From Planctomycetia bacterium (GTDB lineage Bacteria; Planctomycetota; Planctomycetia; Pirellulales; UBA1268), in the NCBI GenBank assembly GCA_026401075.1, contig JAPLNQ010000179.1:1-39887 (forward strand): a stretch of DNA of 39,887 nt, in the 5' to 3' direction. The translations under genes and the position numbers were made by a program. This document shows, in pieces, positions 31,752 to 39,488 of this stretch (the first letter of the stretch is position 1; every line of letters begins with the position of its first letter). Under the pieces are notes generated by a model that was not told where the DNA came from, made no database searches, and saw nothing but the letters and a program-made list of their open reading frames with translations.

Positions 31752-34700
31752 TCATGACGGCCGGCCATAGAGGCCGAAGGCCTGCGTCGGTAGCAGGGCC
31801 TGCGTCGGCTTCAGCTTCTGACTGGTCGCAGCCGGCTGGCCCCATGACTGATCGACAACGCCCTCCCAGTAGACGCCCGCATGGAACGGGATGTTGCCGT
31901 TGTAGACCGTGTTCCACGGACCGCCGGTGGCCACCTGCGCAGGATCCGCGTACGACGACATCAACGCGTAGGGCAGATCGGCTGAATAAAAAGGCTTCGT
32001 GTCCGTGGTGATGACGCCCGTGAAGGTCGAGTTGTACTGCTGGCCGAAAAATCCATCGATCAGCTTGTTCTCATAGGCCAACGACAGGAAGTTCCATTCA
32101 CCGCCGGACGGCGGGGCCGGATCCGTGGGAAGGGCCTTCAGACCCAGCGACGCCAGGTAGGGCGTCGATCCGGTGCCCTTGATGATGTGATCGGAACTGT
32201 AGAGCCCCTGCTGTGCAGGCGTATCGTCGCCGAGCGTCTTGAACAGGCTGCTCGACGGCACCGGGTAGATCGGGAACGCATCGCCGAGCACCTGCCTGCC
32301 CGCCCACATGACCGCTAGAACTCCAGCATAGACTTCGTCAGTCGGCGCATTACCGGGGAGGAATTCGAAATCCTGAGCCCAGAACACATACCCGCCCTTG
32401 GCCGTCGGCTTGGCCTCGGCAGGACTGGGAAACTCGTCCTTCGACGAGAGGCCTGGGTTCGTCAGCACGTTCGAGAGGATGCTCTGCGCCAACGCGAGTT
32501 TGTCGGCTTCGGCCACCGGCGTCGTCGAAGTGAACAGATCCTTGATCAGCGGCCAGATGTTGTAGCCGATGGCTTTGGAGTTATTTTTCAGCGACACCGA
32601 CTCGCCCACGATTCGGCCATTTGTCGTGAGCGTGCCCCTCGCCGTGGCCGAGAATTCACCAATCATACCGTAGCCCGCCGGCACATGAGTGGTCTGGGTC
32701 GTATCGTCTAAGAAATAGATGAGCGAATTGTCGTCCGGTGCCGCGATCGACACCCAGACCTGTGACGAGACCGCCGAGGCCTTCTGGCCATCCCAGGCGT
32801 TGACGGTGAACGCCGCCGTTGCGCCGACGGCATTCTGCGGCGCGATCCAGCGGAGTTTTTGTCCGGCGGCGACGATTCGGGCGGCGAGAGGCGTGTGTGC
32901 TCCGATGGCGGCCCATGCCTTGCCATTCCACTTCTCGACCTTGCCCGCGGTCACGCCATCGACGATGAACGCGATCCGCTTCGAATCGACGTCAGCCGCG
33001 GCGGTCGCCGACTTGAGCATCGTCTGGTTGATCACGAACGGCTTATTTTTGGCCGCACCGATCACGATGGAGGCAGCGTTTTGCATAGGCGCGTCGTTCA
33101 CCGCCTGGATGAGGATCCTGCTTACGACTCCGCTCTGCAACTGCCCATCCGAGGCCGTCACGGTGAGCGCCCGCGGTGAGGTGTTGTCCAAAGCGGATGT
33201 GTACTGGATGTTGCCCGGCTGCCGAACGTAGAAGTTCAGGTCGGCCGGCGCTCCCCGAAGGGTCAAACTGGTGGCCGTGCCGCCCACTGCGACCAGCGGC
33301 GTTCCGATTGCGGCCAGCGTCCCGTCGGCCACGGCGAGCGTGACCGTGAGGAGCGACGAGTCGATGTCGGTGAAGGCAGCGGGAGCGGCGGGCCAGACGA
33401 GGCTGCTGGCGACGTCCTCGGTGACCCGGAACACCGCCGGTGCCCAGACCTTGGGGGCGTCGTTCACGGCGGTGACATCGATCGTGCTGGTGGCGGTCGA
33501 CGATTGCCGGAATGTGCCGTACGACTCGCTGAGGGTGATCGTGAGCGGCCGACTGTGGATGTTGTTAGCCGCCGCCGTGTAGGAGATCCGCCCCGGCACG
33601 GCCGTGAAGTAGTTGTTGAGCGCCGTGAGCGACCCGGTGAACGTCCTCGCGGTGGCCGGTCCGGCAACGGTGACGCCAGCCCCGCTCCGTGCGGCGATGA
33701 CGCCGTCATGAACCCGCAGCGTGACCGTCATCGTCTTGGCAACCGACGAATCGGTGTCGGTGAACGGCACTCCGGAGAAGAGCAGCGGCGTCCGGGTGTC
33801 TTCGACGACGGGGAACGTCGCCGGCACGGAGATCTGCGGCGGTGCCGGCAGTTCGAAGACGTCGGCCACGTTCACCGTGACCAGCTTTTCGGCCGAGAGC
33901 GCGGGCGTGCCGCCGTCGGTCGCCATCACGATGAATTGATACGTCTTCTTGGCCTCGTAGTTGGCCGAGGCGAGCAGGCGGACTTCCCCGGTGCGTGGGT
34001 TGATCGCGACGCTCGCGGCATCGCCGGTGCCCGGCTTGATGCTGAACGTCACGTCCCGGTCAGCGACAGTGGCGCCGATGTCGGTGGCGTCGACCGTGTA
34101 AATCACCGTGCCCGTGGGGGCGTTCTCAGAGACGGACCCCGTGAGGCCGCTCACGAGCACAGGAGCGGCGTTCGTATCGGCCCAGCGGTTGGCATTTTGC
34201 TTGACTAGCCACTCGACCGGCAGGAAGGCGGCGTCGTAGATCTGGAATGTCACATCTTTCGCAGTCATGCTCCCGGCGGGAGCGGCCGCCGCGATGATCT
34301 TTGCTGCGGAATTGAGGAATGTGACGAAGTTCTCGTAGCTCAGGCTCGACAGTCCCGCAAAGGTGCCGCCGAGGGTGTTCGGCACGCTCAGGTTCGCGTC
34401 GCTTTGATACCTGGAATCGAGGCTGGTTCGGGCGGGGCCCGTGAAGTTGCCGCTGGCGTCAAATGTGTTCGAACGGTTGAGCGACTCGATTGAAAACGTG
34501 GCGATCGCCTGCTGCGCTGTCTTTGTGCCGTCGGTCGAGTTCGTCGTATTGAAATCATTCCATTGCAGCGGCCAGTAGAAGGCCTCTTTCAGCTTCGGCA
34601 GGGCCACGTCCTGATAGAGCGGATCGTTGAACATCGCCGCCAGGAGCTCAGGACTGTCCTTGTAGAAGTCGTAGACCGTGTTGAGGGCAGCCGGGCTGAT

Positions 34701-37700
34701 CTCCTTAAGGTCGCCCAGCGTGGCCGTGGCCGTGGCCCGGGTGCCGTAGCCAATCTTGATCATCGGCGGAGATGTCGTTGAGTAGCCGTAGCCGGCGAAT
34801 GTGATGGCGATGCCAGACACGGTGCCATCGAACAACACGGTCGCGGAAGCCCCACTGCCGCTGTCGTCCGCTGCCGCTGTGAACGCAAGCGTTGGTGCGG
34901 ATGCATACCCCGACCCGTAGTTGGTGACCGTCACCGCCACAACCTGGCCCGCCTGTGAGCCTGTTCCGAGAACGGCGATGCCCATCGCCTGCGTGCCGCC
35001 GGGGCCTGGCTTGCCGAAAGCGACCGTAGGGGCCGTCTTGTAGTTGGCACCGCCACTCACGGTGATCTGCAACCCCATCATCGCCAGACCCGTGGCAGTT
35101 TTGCCCCCGGTCGGTGCAGGATCAAACGTCACGAGAGGCGCGGACGCGTATTTCTCACCCGCAGCCGTCATCGTGATGCCGGTGACCTGGCCCGGGCCAT
35201 AGCCATTGGAGATCTGCCAGTTGTAGGCGTTGGCCCCGCCCTGGATCGATGAGCCTTGCACCGTGATCGTCGGCAGCGATGAGGCACTGAACTTCGACGC
35301 GAGCGCCGGCAGGGCCTGGACGGTGGCCGTCTGGTTGCCGGCCCCCGCCTCCGGCGGCGAGATGGTGAAGGTCGGGACGGTGGCGTAGCCGACGCCCGGA
35401 TAGGTGAACCCGATTCCCGTGACGATGTATCCCGTGGAGGCATTGCTATTTTGCGGGTTTTTGGGGTCGGTCGGCCCGGTGATCACGTACGCCTGAGCCG
35501 CCGTGCCTCCGCCTGCGATGAACGTGCTTGCGTCAGGGGCAGAGAGCGACACCGTGGGGAAGTTGCTGAGATACGCCTTCGCCGTCGCGGCTTTGCCGCC
35601 CGTCGGGGCGGGAATGGTGACGTTCGCCCCATCGTCGACATTCGCGTAGCCCTGACCGGGATCGGTCACCGTGATCCCCGTCGCATACCCGTTCGAGTCG
35701 ACATTCAGCAGGCCCTTAGCCGTCCTTTTAGTGCCCTGTGTCGCCGCAGGCTCCGGGAACGTGACGGGGTAAACCATCTTGTTGTCGTAACCTGCGCCCG
35801 GGTCGCCGAGCACGGCGCCGGCACTGTAGCCGAAGCCCGACTCGATGACCGTGAGCGAACTCCTGCCCGTGTCGTCTACCGGAAACGAGCCGGCGGCGTT
35901 GATCGCTGGCACGTAGGCGCCGTTGTAGTTCGGATTCACGCCGTTGTTGTTAGGGCCACCGCTCAGCTTCTGGATCGTGGTGGGATCGTCGTTGAGCATG
36001 TAATAGGGACTGTTCTTCCCCGTGTCGTAATGGTCGCCGAGGACTGTGACCACGATCTGCGCGATCTGCGACTGGCTGGCGTTCACCGGGGCGTGCAGGG
36101 CCGGCGTTTTGACGAGAGACTGCCGAGCCTTCGGGTATTCGCCCACGACCGGGCTAAAGTGGTAGGTTTCATCCACCGTCGTATCGAACGTCACCTCCAG
36201 GCCGCCCGGCCCTGCCAGAGGGCCTGACGCAGTCGCGTACCCGCTTGACGGCTGCGGTGTTACAGTGATGGTGGGCAGCGCGGAGGCGCTGTAACCACTG
36301 CCTGGTGTGAGGATATCGACGCTCCCGACACGATCCCCGATCATATTGACGCGGAGCGTTGGGCCGATTCCGCCTTGTGGCTTGTAGATCGAGATTGTTG
36401 GAGCGCTGGTGTAACCCGAGCCCCCGCTGGTGATGGGCAGCGTTTTTCCCAAGATCCCACCGGTGGTGGGATCCAGCGGCAGGGGTCCGAACGTCACGGC
36501 TGTGCTGGGCGTGTAGGCGTATCCCGTTCCGGGGTCGAGGATGGTGAGCCCGGCGATGCCTCCGAGATACGACGTGTTGCTCTGGGGGATGACCGTCACG
36601 AATCCCGTGGCCTGCGTGCCGGGCCCCTGCGGCGCGGGGAACTTGGCCTGCGGGTAGCCGTCCTCGGGCAGCAGGAGCACCAGCGGACTGGCCGGCGTGC
36701 CGAGGGTTGCCGGCAGATTGATGGTGGGCTCGTGTGTGTAGCCTTCACCCGGATCGGTGATGGTGATGCTGGTGATCGCACCACTGCCGTCGACCGCGTC
36801 GATGTATCCGACTGCGGGGCGGGTGGGTTGAGGGTCGCCCACCTTTGGTGTGAACGACACGTTCAGGTTGTCTTTGGTGCCTTTTGAGTAGCCGCTGCCT
36901 CCAGCCCCCGCCGTCGCCGGGATCCAGACGCCTGTGCTGTATCCCGAACCGATGCCGTTGCCAAAGAAGCCACCGAAGCCGTTGCCCAGCGCCGTCTGGT
37001 CTATGCTGCCCGTTCCCATGATGGCATAGCCCTGCGCGGCGGTGCCGATTAGCTTGCCGTTGCCATCGCGCGGCTGATTGAACGTGACCGTGGGCGTGGA
37101 CGCGAAGGTGTTGCCGGTGGCGGGCGGATTGAGGATCGGCGTGGCCACATAATTGATCGTGGCGGTGCCGTCGGGGGCGATCGCCGAACCTGGGCCCGGC
37201 ATGTAGTGGTTTTCGCCGAACCAGTAGTTCTCCGTGTAGGCGACCATTGGGCCCGGGCTGTATGCGAGCCACGAGGTTTGTGCGTACTTGATGATGCCGA
37301 ACTGGTACGGCAGTGCATTGCCGGTGGACCAGGTGGTCGGGTCGATCGCCTGCACGTCGGTAAAGACGACGTTGGGCACGCCGTTGCTGACCGTGTGCGG
37401 CAACGCCGTCCAGAGCCATTTCGCGTAGCCGTAGCCGGCGACCGGCCAGCCATTCACCGCTTGCGTCGTTGGATTCCAGGACCAATCGTGGCCCGGCGTG
37501 ACTGGCAGATTAAGCGGGTGATACGGGTCTTTCGGCGCGGCCGGCCCTTCAGCGAAGCCGTAGTAGGTGTCGGTCTCGAAGGCTCCGGCGCCTTCTCCAT
37601 CGGCCTCATAGTGCGTGAAGAATTTCGTGCCACCCTTGAGCAGCTGCTTGACATTGATGGCGTTCACCAGTTGGAACGACTGGTACATGTTGTTCGGTGC

Positions 37701-38537
37701 CGGACTGGTCGGCAGTCCATCCGTTGTTAACGTGTTTCCCGCGAAATTCGGGTTCGGGGGTGGGGCATTGCTCGGCGTGTCTTTGCTCGGCGTGCCGTCA
37801 TAGAGGTGCCACGGATTGGCGACATCGAGGTAGGCGATCACACCGGCCTCCACGCCGGAGGGGAGCTGGTCGAGGAAGTCGGTCACGACCCACGGCACAC
37901 CATCCGTGCTGAATGAGGGGTCCAGATAGTCGTAGAAGTGTTTGTTGTCAGTGTTGTAGTCGCCGATGTTGATGTAGGCGACGCTGGCTCCGCTGTTGGT
38001 GATGAAATTGATGTAATCGGTGGCCCAGTTTTGGAACGTGCCCCTGTTGGAGAGGTCAACGTTCAACGTCGCACCAGCGCCCGAGCCGCCGACGCCGCTG
38101 ATCGTGACGCTGGCGGTGCCTGTGTAGCCGGTGCCGTGGGCATCGACAGAGATGCTGACGACCTTGCCCGCGTCGGGGCCAGTGCCCAGAACGGCAGTGG
38201 CGGATGCCCCTGAGCCTGCGCCGTTGGCGTTGATCGACACCGTCGGCACACTTGTGTAGCCGGAGCCTCCGGCGGTGACCGTGATGCTCGTGACGGGGCC
38301 GCTCGTCGCCACGAACGAGATGTCCTGACCGAAGTGCGACACTTCAATCTTGGGGATGAGCGCCACCGGAGAAGCTTCCGCCGCCGCGTTCGACAGCGGG
38401 ACGATGCCTTGTCCATACTGCGAGGATTGGCCCGTGAGCGCGTGTCGCTTCTCGAGCAGTTCGAAGAGGGATGTGCGGCGGGGTGCGGCTCGCCGCAGGC
38501 TGGTCTTCGAGCGGGGCGAGTGCTTCTTCGATTTCAT
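31752..38537 (-). CDS. Giant repeat protein with LEPR-XLL-like N-terminus and cadherin-like domain
   Basis: 2,261 residues. The N-terminus is basic and then reads RRTSLFELLEKRHALTG, resembling the planctomycete LEPR-XLL export/anchor signature; there is no classical hydrophobic signal. Residues about 60-155 hold two glycine-rich repeats (GGSGYTSVPTVSI type). Residues about 160-455 are a globular, aromatic-rich domain with strands such as VAYINIGDYN, AGVIAYLDV and KFFTHYEADGEGAG. From about 456 to 1280 there are roughly fourteen more G-x-GY repeats, probably a beta-solenoid or beta-sandwich array. About 1280-1455 is a mixed region, 1455-1560 a cadherin-like domain (VSENAPTGTVIYTVDATD), and 1565-1930 Ig-like domains with VNDAP linkers. 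Residues 1936-2261 form a second aromatic-rich domain. Probably a surface or matrix protein; the globular domains are not recognised. Confidence 0.85.
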   Translation of the reverse strand: MKSKKHSPRSKTSLRRAAPRRTSLFELLEKRHALTGQSSQYGQGIVPLSNAAAEASPVALIPKIEVSHFGQDISFVATSGPVTSITVTAGGSGYTSVPTVSINANGAGSGASATAVLGTGPDAGKVVSISVDAHGTGYTGTASVTISGVGGSGAGATLNVDLSNRGTFQNWATDYINFITNSGASVAYINIGDYNTDNKHFYDYLDPSFSTDGVPWVVTDFLDQLPSGVEAGVIAYLDVANPWHLYDGTPSKDTPSNAPPPNPNFAGNTLTTDGLPTSPAPNNMYQSFQLVNAINVKQLLKGGTKFFTHYEADGEGAGAFETDTYYGFAEGPAAPKDPYHPLNLPVTPGHDWSWNPTTQAVNGWPVAGYGYAKWLWTALPHTVSNGVPNVVFTDVQAIDPTTWSTGNALPYQFGIIKYAQTSWLAYSPGPMVAYTENYWFGENHYMPGPGSAIAPDGTATINYVATPILNPPATGNTFASTPTVTFNQPRDGNGKLIGTAAQGYAIMGTGSIDQTALGNGFGGFFGNGIGSGYSTGVWIPATAGAGGSGYSKGTKDNLNVSFTPKVGDPQPTRPAVGYIDAVDGSGAITSITITDPGEGYTHEPTINLPATLGTPASPLVLLLPEDGYPQAKFPAPQGPGTQATGFVTVIPQSNTSYLGGIAGLTILDPGTGYAYTPSTAVTFGPLPLDPTTGGILGKTLPITSGGSGYTSAPTISIYKPQGGIGPTLRVNMIGDRVGSVDILTPGSGYSASALPTITVTPQPSSGYATASGPLAGPGGLEVTFDTTVDETYHFSPVVGEYPKARQSLVKTPALHAPVNASQSQIAQIVVTVLGDHYDTGKNSPYYMLNDDPTTIQKLSGGPNNNGVNPNYNGAYVPAINAAGSFPVDDTGRSSLTVIESGFGYSAGAVLGDPGAGYDNKMVYPVTFPEPAATQGTKRTAKGLLNVDSNGYATGITVTDPGQGYANVDDGANVTIPAPTGGKAATAKAYLSNFPTVSLSAPDASTFIAGGGTAAQAYVITGPTDPKNPQNSNASTGYIVTGIGFTYPGVGYATVPTFTISPPEAGAGNQTATVQALPALASKFSASSLPTITVQGSSIQGGANAYNWQISNGYGPGQVTGITMTAAGEKYASAPLVTFDPAPTGGKTATGLAMMGLQITVSGGANYKTAPTVAFGKPGPGGTQAMGIAVLGTGSQAGQVVAVTVTNYGSGYASAPTLAFTAAADDSGSGASATVLFDGTVSGIAITFAGYGYSTTSPPMIKIGYGTRATATATLGDLKEISPAALNTVYDFYKDSPELLAAMFNDPLYQDVALPKLKEAFYWPLQWNDFNTTNSTDGTKTAQQAIATFSIESLNRSNTFDASGNFTGPARTSLDSRYQSDANLSVPNTLGGTFAGLSSLSYENFVTFLNSAAKIIAAAAPAGSMTAKDVTFQIYDAAFLPVEWLVKQNANRWADTNAAPVLVSGLTGSVSENAPTGTVIYTVDATDIGATVADRDVTFSIKPGTGDAASVAINPRTGEVRLLASANYEAKKTYQFIVMATDGGTPALSAEKLVTVNVADVFELPAPPQISVPATFPVVEDTRTPLLFSGVPFTDTDSSVAKTMTVTLRVHDGVIAARSGAGVTVAGPATARTFTGSLTALNNYFTAVPGRISYTAAANNIHSRPLTITLSESYGTFRQSSTATSTIDVTAVNDAPKVWAPAVFRVTEDVASSLVWPAAPAAFTDIDSSLLTVTLAVADGTLAAIGTPLVAVGGTATSLTLRGAPADLNFYVRQPGNIQYTSALDNTSPRALTVTASDGQLQSGVVSRILIQAVNDAPMQNAASIVIGAAKNKPFVINQTMLKSATAAADVDSKRIAFIVDGVTAGKVEKWNGKAWAAIGAHTPLAARIVAAGQKLRWIAPQNAVGATAAFTVNAWDGQKASAVSSQVWVSIAAPDDNSLIYFLDDTTQTTHVPAGYGMIGEFSATARGTLTTNGRIVGESVSLKNNSKAIGYNIWPLIKDLFTSTTPVAEADKLALAQSILSNVLTNPGLSSKDEFPSPAEAKPTAKGGYVFWAQDFEFLPGNAPTDEVYAGVLAVMWAGRQVLGDAFPIYPVPSSSLFKTLGDDTPAQQGLYSSDHIIKGTGSTPYLASLGLKALPTDPAPPSGGEWNFLSLAYENKLIDGFFGQQYNSTFTGVITTDTKPFYSADLPYALMSSYADPAQVATGGPWNTVYNGNIPFHAGVYWEGVVDQSWGQPAATSQKLKPTQALLPTQAFGLYGRPS

Positions 38538-38825: not shown

Positions 38826-39488
38826 TCACGTGGCGATGAACTTCCGCTCCAGGTTGCCGAGCACTTTCGAGATCGGCAGGGGATCGGCGCCAGGAACCCG
38901 CTTGGCGGCCTCCACGCAGCGGCGCAGGTCGGCCACCATCTCGCGGATGTCGGAATCGCGAAAGAACGACTGCACCCAGAGCACGGCCACCCGCCGCTCA
39001 CCCGCAGTCACCGGCAACACCTCGTGGATCACCGTCGTCGGATAGGCATAGGCCCAGCCGGCAGCGAGCTTAGTCGACTGTCTCTCCGCGCCGGAGTGAT
39101 GGAGGCACAACTCGCCGCCTGCATAGCTCTCCGGCGGCGACAGGAAGATCGTCATCGAGATATCCTGCCGGATCGGAGGCATGCCGCTCATCACCGCATC
39201 GACGTGCGGGCCATACCCGTCGCCGACGCCATACTTCGAATAGATCGGCTGGGAATACCCGCTCGGCGAGAGCGCTTCGCGAAAGAGCCCGCTGCGGCGG
39301 AGCGCTGTTTCGAGGATCGCATCGAGCGACCCGATTCGGGGCCCGCGTCGCGACACCTGCCTGTTTGCCTTGACCTCGACTGCCATCCCCCGCGCGGTGG
39401 TGCGGCCGTCGTCATACTCCGCGACATCCATCAGCGCGTTGATCTCTGCGAGTTCGGCGGGGAGCAGGAGGTCTGGCAGCGTGAGCAT
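38826..39488 (-). CDS. piuC: Fe(II)/2-oxoglutarate dioxygenase, PiuC/YbiX (PKHD-type) family
   Basis: 220 residues from ATG 39488, supported by AAAGGA 5 bases upstream; the open frame continues upstream without a comparable site. The iron ligands are H95 and D97 in YGPHVDAVM and H155 in TTVIHEVLPV, and the 2-oxoglutarate-binding arginine is in TAGERRVAVLWVQSF (R165 or R166). DISMTIFLSPPESYAGGEL is the family core. Length and C-terminal helices fit the PKHD-type hydroxylase YbiX/PiuC, which is linked to iron-siderophore receptors in proteobacteria. No TonB-dependent receptor is seen nearby, so the substrate here is open. It diverges from the photolyase gene across 157 bases. Confidence 0.93.
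   Translation of the reverse strand: MLTLPDLLLPAELAEINALMDVAEYDDGRTTARGMAVEVKANRQVSRRGPRIGSLDAILETALRRSGLFREALSPSGYSQPIYSKYGVGDGYGPHVDAVMSGMPPIRQDISMTIFLSPPESYAGGELCLHHSGAERQSTKLAAGWAYAYPTTVIHEVLPVTAGERRVAVLWVQSFFRDSDIREMVADLRRCVEAAKRVPGADPLPISKVLGNLERKFIAT

Follow-up and report, generated by a model that had tools for sequence, protein, structure and literature searches.

The giant protein of 2,261 residues encoded in the analysed stretch of 39,887 nucleotides (the window) is a secreted-type, modular protein that combines a conserved unit split by repeats, a cadherin/Ig stalk and a mobile C-terminal domain, and its gene is co-inherited without exception, within the bacterial family searched, with an upstream gene for a PKHD-type dioxygenase. 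We read this pairing as a module of surface protein and hydroxylase. The explanation as a whole, in which a split-domain surface giant carries enzyme-like heads on a stalk and is paired with a cytoplasmic dioxygenase that it needs, is given a probability of about 0.5.

The giant gene is an uninterrupted open reading frame of 2,261 codons, read from 38537 to 31752. The frame reported in the first-pass annotation is thus real, with the correction that it lies on the minus strand, since translation of the plus strand over the same interval is full of stops. The neighbouring genes in the window are of planctomycete type and encode PSCyt1/PSCyt2/PSD1, DUF1501 and DUF1552 proteins. The features discussed below are as follows.

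38826–39488, minus strand: PiuC/YbiX-type (PKHD-type) Fe(II)/2OG dioxygenase of 220 aa, co-directional with the giant gene and 288 bases upstream of it
31752–38537, minus strand: gene of the giant surface protein (2,261 aa, cysteine-free), with homologues in L010, L011, L012, L046 and L047
38430–38471, minus strand: motif FELLEKRHALTG, within residues 23–36, resembling by eye the 'planctomycete extracellular' N-terminal motif (LEPR type)
38313–38357, minus strand: residues 61–75, first conserved element of the split unit in the alignment, IPKIEVSHFGQDISF
38058–38306, minus strand: residues 78–160, insertion site 1, two G-x-GY repeats matching PHROG virion-protein profiles, absent from L010 and L046
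37164–38057, minus strand: residues 161–458, N half of the split unit, with an invariant D-G-E-G and predicted acidic strand ends
34716–37163, minus strand: residues 459–1274, main insertion, G-x-GY repeats with linkers, ~816 residues in all
34173–34715, minus strand: residues 1275–1455, C half of the split unit ('middle segment')
33867–34139, minus strand: residues 1467–1557, cadherin domain (PF00028, E 6.8e-13; PDB cadherins, E down to 1.3e-15)
33093–33860, minus strand: residues 1560–1815, tandem-95/cadherin-like Ig repeats (NF012211 and Cadherin_4, E 1.1e-4, both below cut-off)
32739–33092, minus strand: residues 1816–1933, Ig-like 'VEKW...LRW' spacer common to C-domain genes of other genomes, with no Pfam match
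31755–32738, minus strand: residues 1934–2261, C-terminal domain, a mobile module with an invariant QDxE

The N-terminal motif has counterparts in the relatives (FELLEPRHAL, ETLEPRLAL and FERLEERLAM), and the equivalent motif of L060 matched PF07595 with an E value of 0.006, which is below threshold, while hmmscan of the first 60 residues of the giant protein itself gave no match, PF07595 included. The protein resembles the planctomycete giant surface proteins (LEPR, PF07595) in this LEPR-like motif, in its cadherin, Ig and FG-GAP-like modules, in size and in patchy occurrence, and differs from them in having two uncatalogued globular domain families, one of which is interrupted by phage-type G-x-GY repeats. 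The cadherin domain (49.3 bits against a cut-off of 28.8) is the sole Pfam family above cut-off in the protein.

Sequence and profile searches of the N, middle and C segments against Pfam, NCBIfam and PDB returned no significant match, which bears out the earlier description of two globular domains of no assigned family. Weak matches to triosephosphate isomerase, pyrimidine nucleoside phosphorylase and SSL14 (E 0.01–0.25) were taken as chance, and neither the N+middle domain nor the C domain matched a glycoside hydrolase (GH) family by sequence or profile. At the sensitivity used, neither domain had a relative on viral contigs or plasmids. All three segments are conserved across independent genomes at roughly 40–73% identity, and therefore they are most likely real folded domains; as judged from their sequences, the N+middle domain and the C domain are protein families not yet listed. 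The heads are also as rich in aromatic residues as had been described, F, W and Y together making up 14.4% of the N part, 12.4% of the middle and 11.9% of the C part, against 8.1% of the repeats and 6.3% of the cadherin/Ig stalk.

The G-x-GY motif occurs 15 times in the protein compared with 1.2 times expected after shuffling (maximum 6 in 1,000 shuffles). Against PHROG, the units hit profiles for head closure, baseplate wedge and tail fibre, all of them virion proteins, at E values down to 5.7e-28, and tblastn located G-x-GY-like stretches in cyanophage tail-fibre-like proteins; PDB sequences gave no significant match to the repeats. Residues 76–160 and 480–1270 have these repeats in common with the phage virion proteins of PHROG 460, 19630, 701, 5342 and 2885. 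Compared with the G-x-GY regions of cyanophages and other phages (PHROG 460, 19630, 5342 and others), whose profiles the units match, the repeats of the window interrupt a domain of a bacterial surface protein and not a virion protein.

Residues ~61–458 and 1275–1455 constitute one conserved unit in two blocks, with G-x-GY arrays at variable sites between its segments. Each of the five genes that are long enough (window, L010, L011, L012 and L046) contained both the N half and the middle segment, in an unchanged order. Within the family, 6 of 72 genomes, including that of the window, held a relative of the N segment, and the segment was absent from 293 other genomes sampled across the phylum. 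At site 1, G-x-GY units are present in the window, L012 and L047, whereas L010 and L046 read straight through, L010 with the sequence IEVSHFGQDIAFADEHGQPDKAKFTAWAEDYISF; in both of the latter a strand-like (K/Q)I(E/Q)VSHFGQDI is directly joined to a helix-like AWA(E/Q)DY. This read-through is the strongest evidence that the repeats entered a pre-existing domain. Moreover, L012 carries extra G-x-GY units inside the middle segment. The N half and the middle segment most likely belong to a single domain as its two halves, and the two blocks would then fold together. The first-pass annotation had suggested a single fold split by an insertion; such a split is supported, but it would join the N half to the middle segment and not to the C-terminal domain. 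Similarly, the ~1,480 residues that it placed between the two heads do contain G-x-GY repeats and a cadherin domain, but a third conserved segment, residues 1275–1455, lies inside them and belongs with the first head.

A third uncatalogued domain of ~300 aa (LVLWHEGYK...GVDVENF) occurs uninterrupted in the C-domain genes of G006, G016, G081, G090 and G091. Several genomes have it downstream of the C domain, in most cases preceded by the VEKW spacer, and its alignment (A5, with rows from L015, L016, L018, L019 and L017) had no match in Pfam or PDB. Local profile comparison of A5 with the joined N+middle halves gave weak matches at collinear positions, whose summed score was reached by 0 of 200 column shuffles and whose best score was reached by 3 of 200, and a further local profile test gave p values of 0.014 and 0.022. 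A global-mode hhalign run of the same pair aligned the ends alone, and was discarded as uninformative. On these profiles, common descent of the third domain and the joined halves is suggestive only.

The C domain is a separate mobile module that is found in different proteins across genomes. It is present in 8 of the 72 family genomes, and a sample of 297 genomes of the order added none to these eight; a phylum sample of 343 genomes held no copy beyond the query genome itself. A collection scan restricted to a few exact peptide patterns found the domain in three actinobacterial MAGs (L007–L009, two of them Mycobacteriaceae), at the C-terminus of PGRS-like glycine-rich secreted proteins, and samples of 301 Mycobacteriaceae and of 346 genomes of their phylum again held none beyond the query genome. 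These three copies are 65–72% identical to that of the window, which is 72% identical to one of them, 61% identical to the nearest planctomycete copy (L014) and 39–51% identical to the rest. In the C-domain tree the actinobacterial rows branch from among the planctomycete ones with moderate support (84/84, 86/92), suggesting a transfer between phyla, from planctomycetes to actinobacteria. The three MAG proteins are like PGRS-type Mycobacteriaceae proteins in that the C domain follows glycine-rich G-G-N-G-type repeats, and they differ from the giant protein in being without G-x-GY repeats, cadherin domain and adjacent dioxygenase. The QDxE, W and G residues that are invariant in the alignment of relatives suggest a putative active site. 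The C-domain protein in L020 (G031) is of a secreted kind: judged by eye, it carries a hydrophobic signal at its N-terminus and a PEP-CTERM-like stretch behind the domain, and a sulfatase-like sequence comes next in the same open frame. For split-domain genes the C domain is an optional extra, other such genes ending in FG-GAP-like repeats (G005), in Ig-like repeats (G070) or in cadherin and a VEKW domain (G016).

Two other arrangements of these segments have to be weighed. That the N and middle segments are separate domains, kept together by chance and without a split fold, seems rather unlikely to us: they do lie ~800 residues apart, have no confident structure and resemble the intact third domain only weakly, yet pairing and order are identical in every complete gene (5/5), and the region has demonstrably taken up repeats at further sites. 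The earlier proposal of one fold made up of the N- and C-terminal domains and interrupted by the ~1,480 residues between them is very improbable, and so is a duplicated pair. The two domains share an aromatic flavour and acidic strand ends, but a profile–profile comparison assigned them a probability of 0.2% and other comparisons were likewise empty, and the two differ in relatives and in phyletic distribution, the C domain occurring without N in L007–L009 and L016–L020 and N+middle without C in L010, L012 and L046. We rejected both readings on these null profile comparisons and on the independent occurrence of the two domains, and we retain the reading in which the first head consists of the N half and the middle segment.

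The upstream dioxygenase matched PF13640 (E 6.3e-12) and NF003974 (159.4 bits, above the cut-off of 143), and its PDB matches included 3dkq (E 2.4e-30) and PiuC 9qn0, with PiuC and Sbal_3634 as the named proteins. A search of the 72 family genomes at E 1e-15 found it in G000, G005, G016, G032, G070 and G080 only, which is the identical set to the carriers of the N domain (6/72). The copies are those at 38826–39488 of the window (minus strand) and in L012, L046, L047, L010 and L060, and an HxD...H iron-binding triad (GPHVD, GAHID or GPHTD, with VHEV or IHEV) is present in 6/6. If the genes were scattered independently, identical sets of six carriers would arise with a chance of 1/C(72,6) = 6e-9, a figure that is optimistic because of shared ancestry and physical linkage. 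The co-occurrence spans five genera, with divergence down to about 45–55% identity, and in all five loci that are visible (window, G005, G016, G070 and G080) the dioxygenase lies directly upstream of the split-domain gene and in the same direction. G032 differs: the gene after the dioxygenase there encodes another LEPR-type protein (L060, 3111–4970), which has an uncatalogued N-terminal domain with the motif GITIDSEFF and FN3 repeats and is truncated where its contig ends, and the start of the split-domain gene lies at the end of another contig. The 288 bases between the dioxygenase and the giant gene could accommodate a separate promoter for the latter. A 2OG-oxygenase match (27% identity) upstream of the G016 C-domain gene was rejected as it lies in a PQQ/BamB-like frame, and C-domain genes are thus not linked to the dioxygenase.

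For the fold of the two heads, strand–helix units were counted by eye, six in the N half and two in the middle half, and the sum of the two halves would match the count of a TIM barrel. Acidic motifs are invariant in the N domain (D-G-E), the C domain (QDxE) and the third domain (DVE), with a predicted position at strand ends. The AF2 model of the C domain, from a four-row alignment, is of low confidence (pLDDT 45.5, pTM 0.55), as is the model of the N part from the window sequence alone (pLDDT 34.7), and the Foldseek list obtained with the former was dominated by TIM barrels, with a best E value of 0.11 that is not significant. A TIM-barrel enzyme fold is plausible for both domains. The earlier comparison with TIM-barrel hydrolases agrees with the strand/helix pattern, the D-x-E/D-G-E motifs and the TIM-rich Foldseek list, but both models are too poor to decide on it.

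Against the proposed role of these heads stands a purely structural adhesin, in which the conserved domains would bind without catalysing, as lectin-like or protein-binding heads, and the repeats together with the cadherin and Ig domains would form an attachment stalk. Cadherin and tandem-95 domains, G-x-GY repeats that are otherwise found in virion structural proteins, the accessory and patchy distribution typical of surface adhesins, and the lack of any match to an enzyme family all agree with it; we regard it as possible but doubtful, because the aromatic-rich segments, the invariant D-x-E/D-G-E and the alternating strand–helix pattern look more like alpha/beta enzymes, and because it leaves the strict pairing with the dioxygenase unexplained. 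The pairing itself could have arisen if the dioxygenase were a hitch-hiker on a horizontally moving segment, functionally unlinked to the giant protein. Both genes are accessory and patchy, adjacency is not seen in G032, and relatives are ranked differently by the identities of the two genes, which means that dioxygenase and split-domain gene may not have evolved in lockstep, although support in the dioxygenase tree is low. However, the exact 6/6 co-occurrence over five genera at such divergence, together with identical order and orientation in 5/5 visible loci, makes an unlinked passenger unlikely. Most probably, the giant protein processes ligands at the cell surface by means of two independent enzyme-like heads on a cadherin/Ig stalk, in functional coupling with a cytoplasmic hydroxylase. 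Of this, we consider the domain layout and the gene pairing established, and we infer the fold, the catalysis and the direction in which the coupling works.

A precedent is found in Proteobacteria, where the cytoplasmic dioxygenase CciO is strictly required by its neighbour CciT, an outer-membrane iron receptor, the substrate of CciO being unknown (PMC12004947); PiuC/YbiX-type enzymes of that phylum partner TonB-dependent iron receptors by a mechanism that is undefined (PMC12004947). Planctomycetes are not mentioned in that paper (PMC12004947). The present pair resembles CciT–CciO, PiuA–PiuC and Fiu–YbiX in that the gene of a PKHD-type dioxygenase is inherited along with that of a partner exported to the surface (PMC12004947). 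The difference is in the partner, which there is a TonB-dependent outer-membrane iron receptor and here a giant modular surface protein with no iron link shown. None of the adjacent partners of the dioxygenase is a TonB-dependent receptor gene, the place being taken by the giant surface protein in five loci and by the other LEPR-type protein in G032. By analogy, the dioxygenase would act in the cytoplasm and would be needed for the work of the surface protein, as CciO is for CciT; it would either hydroxylate the surface protein prior to export or process the ligand of that protein. Both heads may process ligands as TIM-barrel-like (hydrolase-type) domains carried outward by the stalk, and loops of the first barrel may bear the G-x-GY arrays as extended, projecting arms. 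A bolder generalization, which we hold with little confidence, is that PKHD-type dioxygenases hydroxylate their co-inherited exported partners or the ligand of those partners, the partner here being the giant protein and its barrel a scaffold for loop-inserted phage-type arrays.

A cytoplasmic dioxygenase family linked to siderophore-antibiotic resistance is paired here with an exported protein of a wholly different kind, and in the genomes searched the two co-occur perfectly; comparing the partners of PKHD-type dioxygenases could show what the enzyme modifies. Moreover, phage-virion-type repeats lie at variable sites of a conserved bacterial surface domain whose before-and-after states are readable, and the split domain is a case of growth into a giant protein through insertion between conserved segments.
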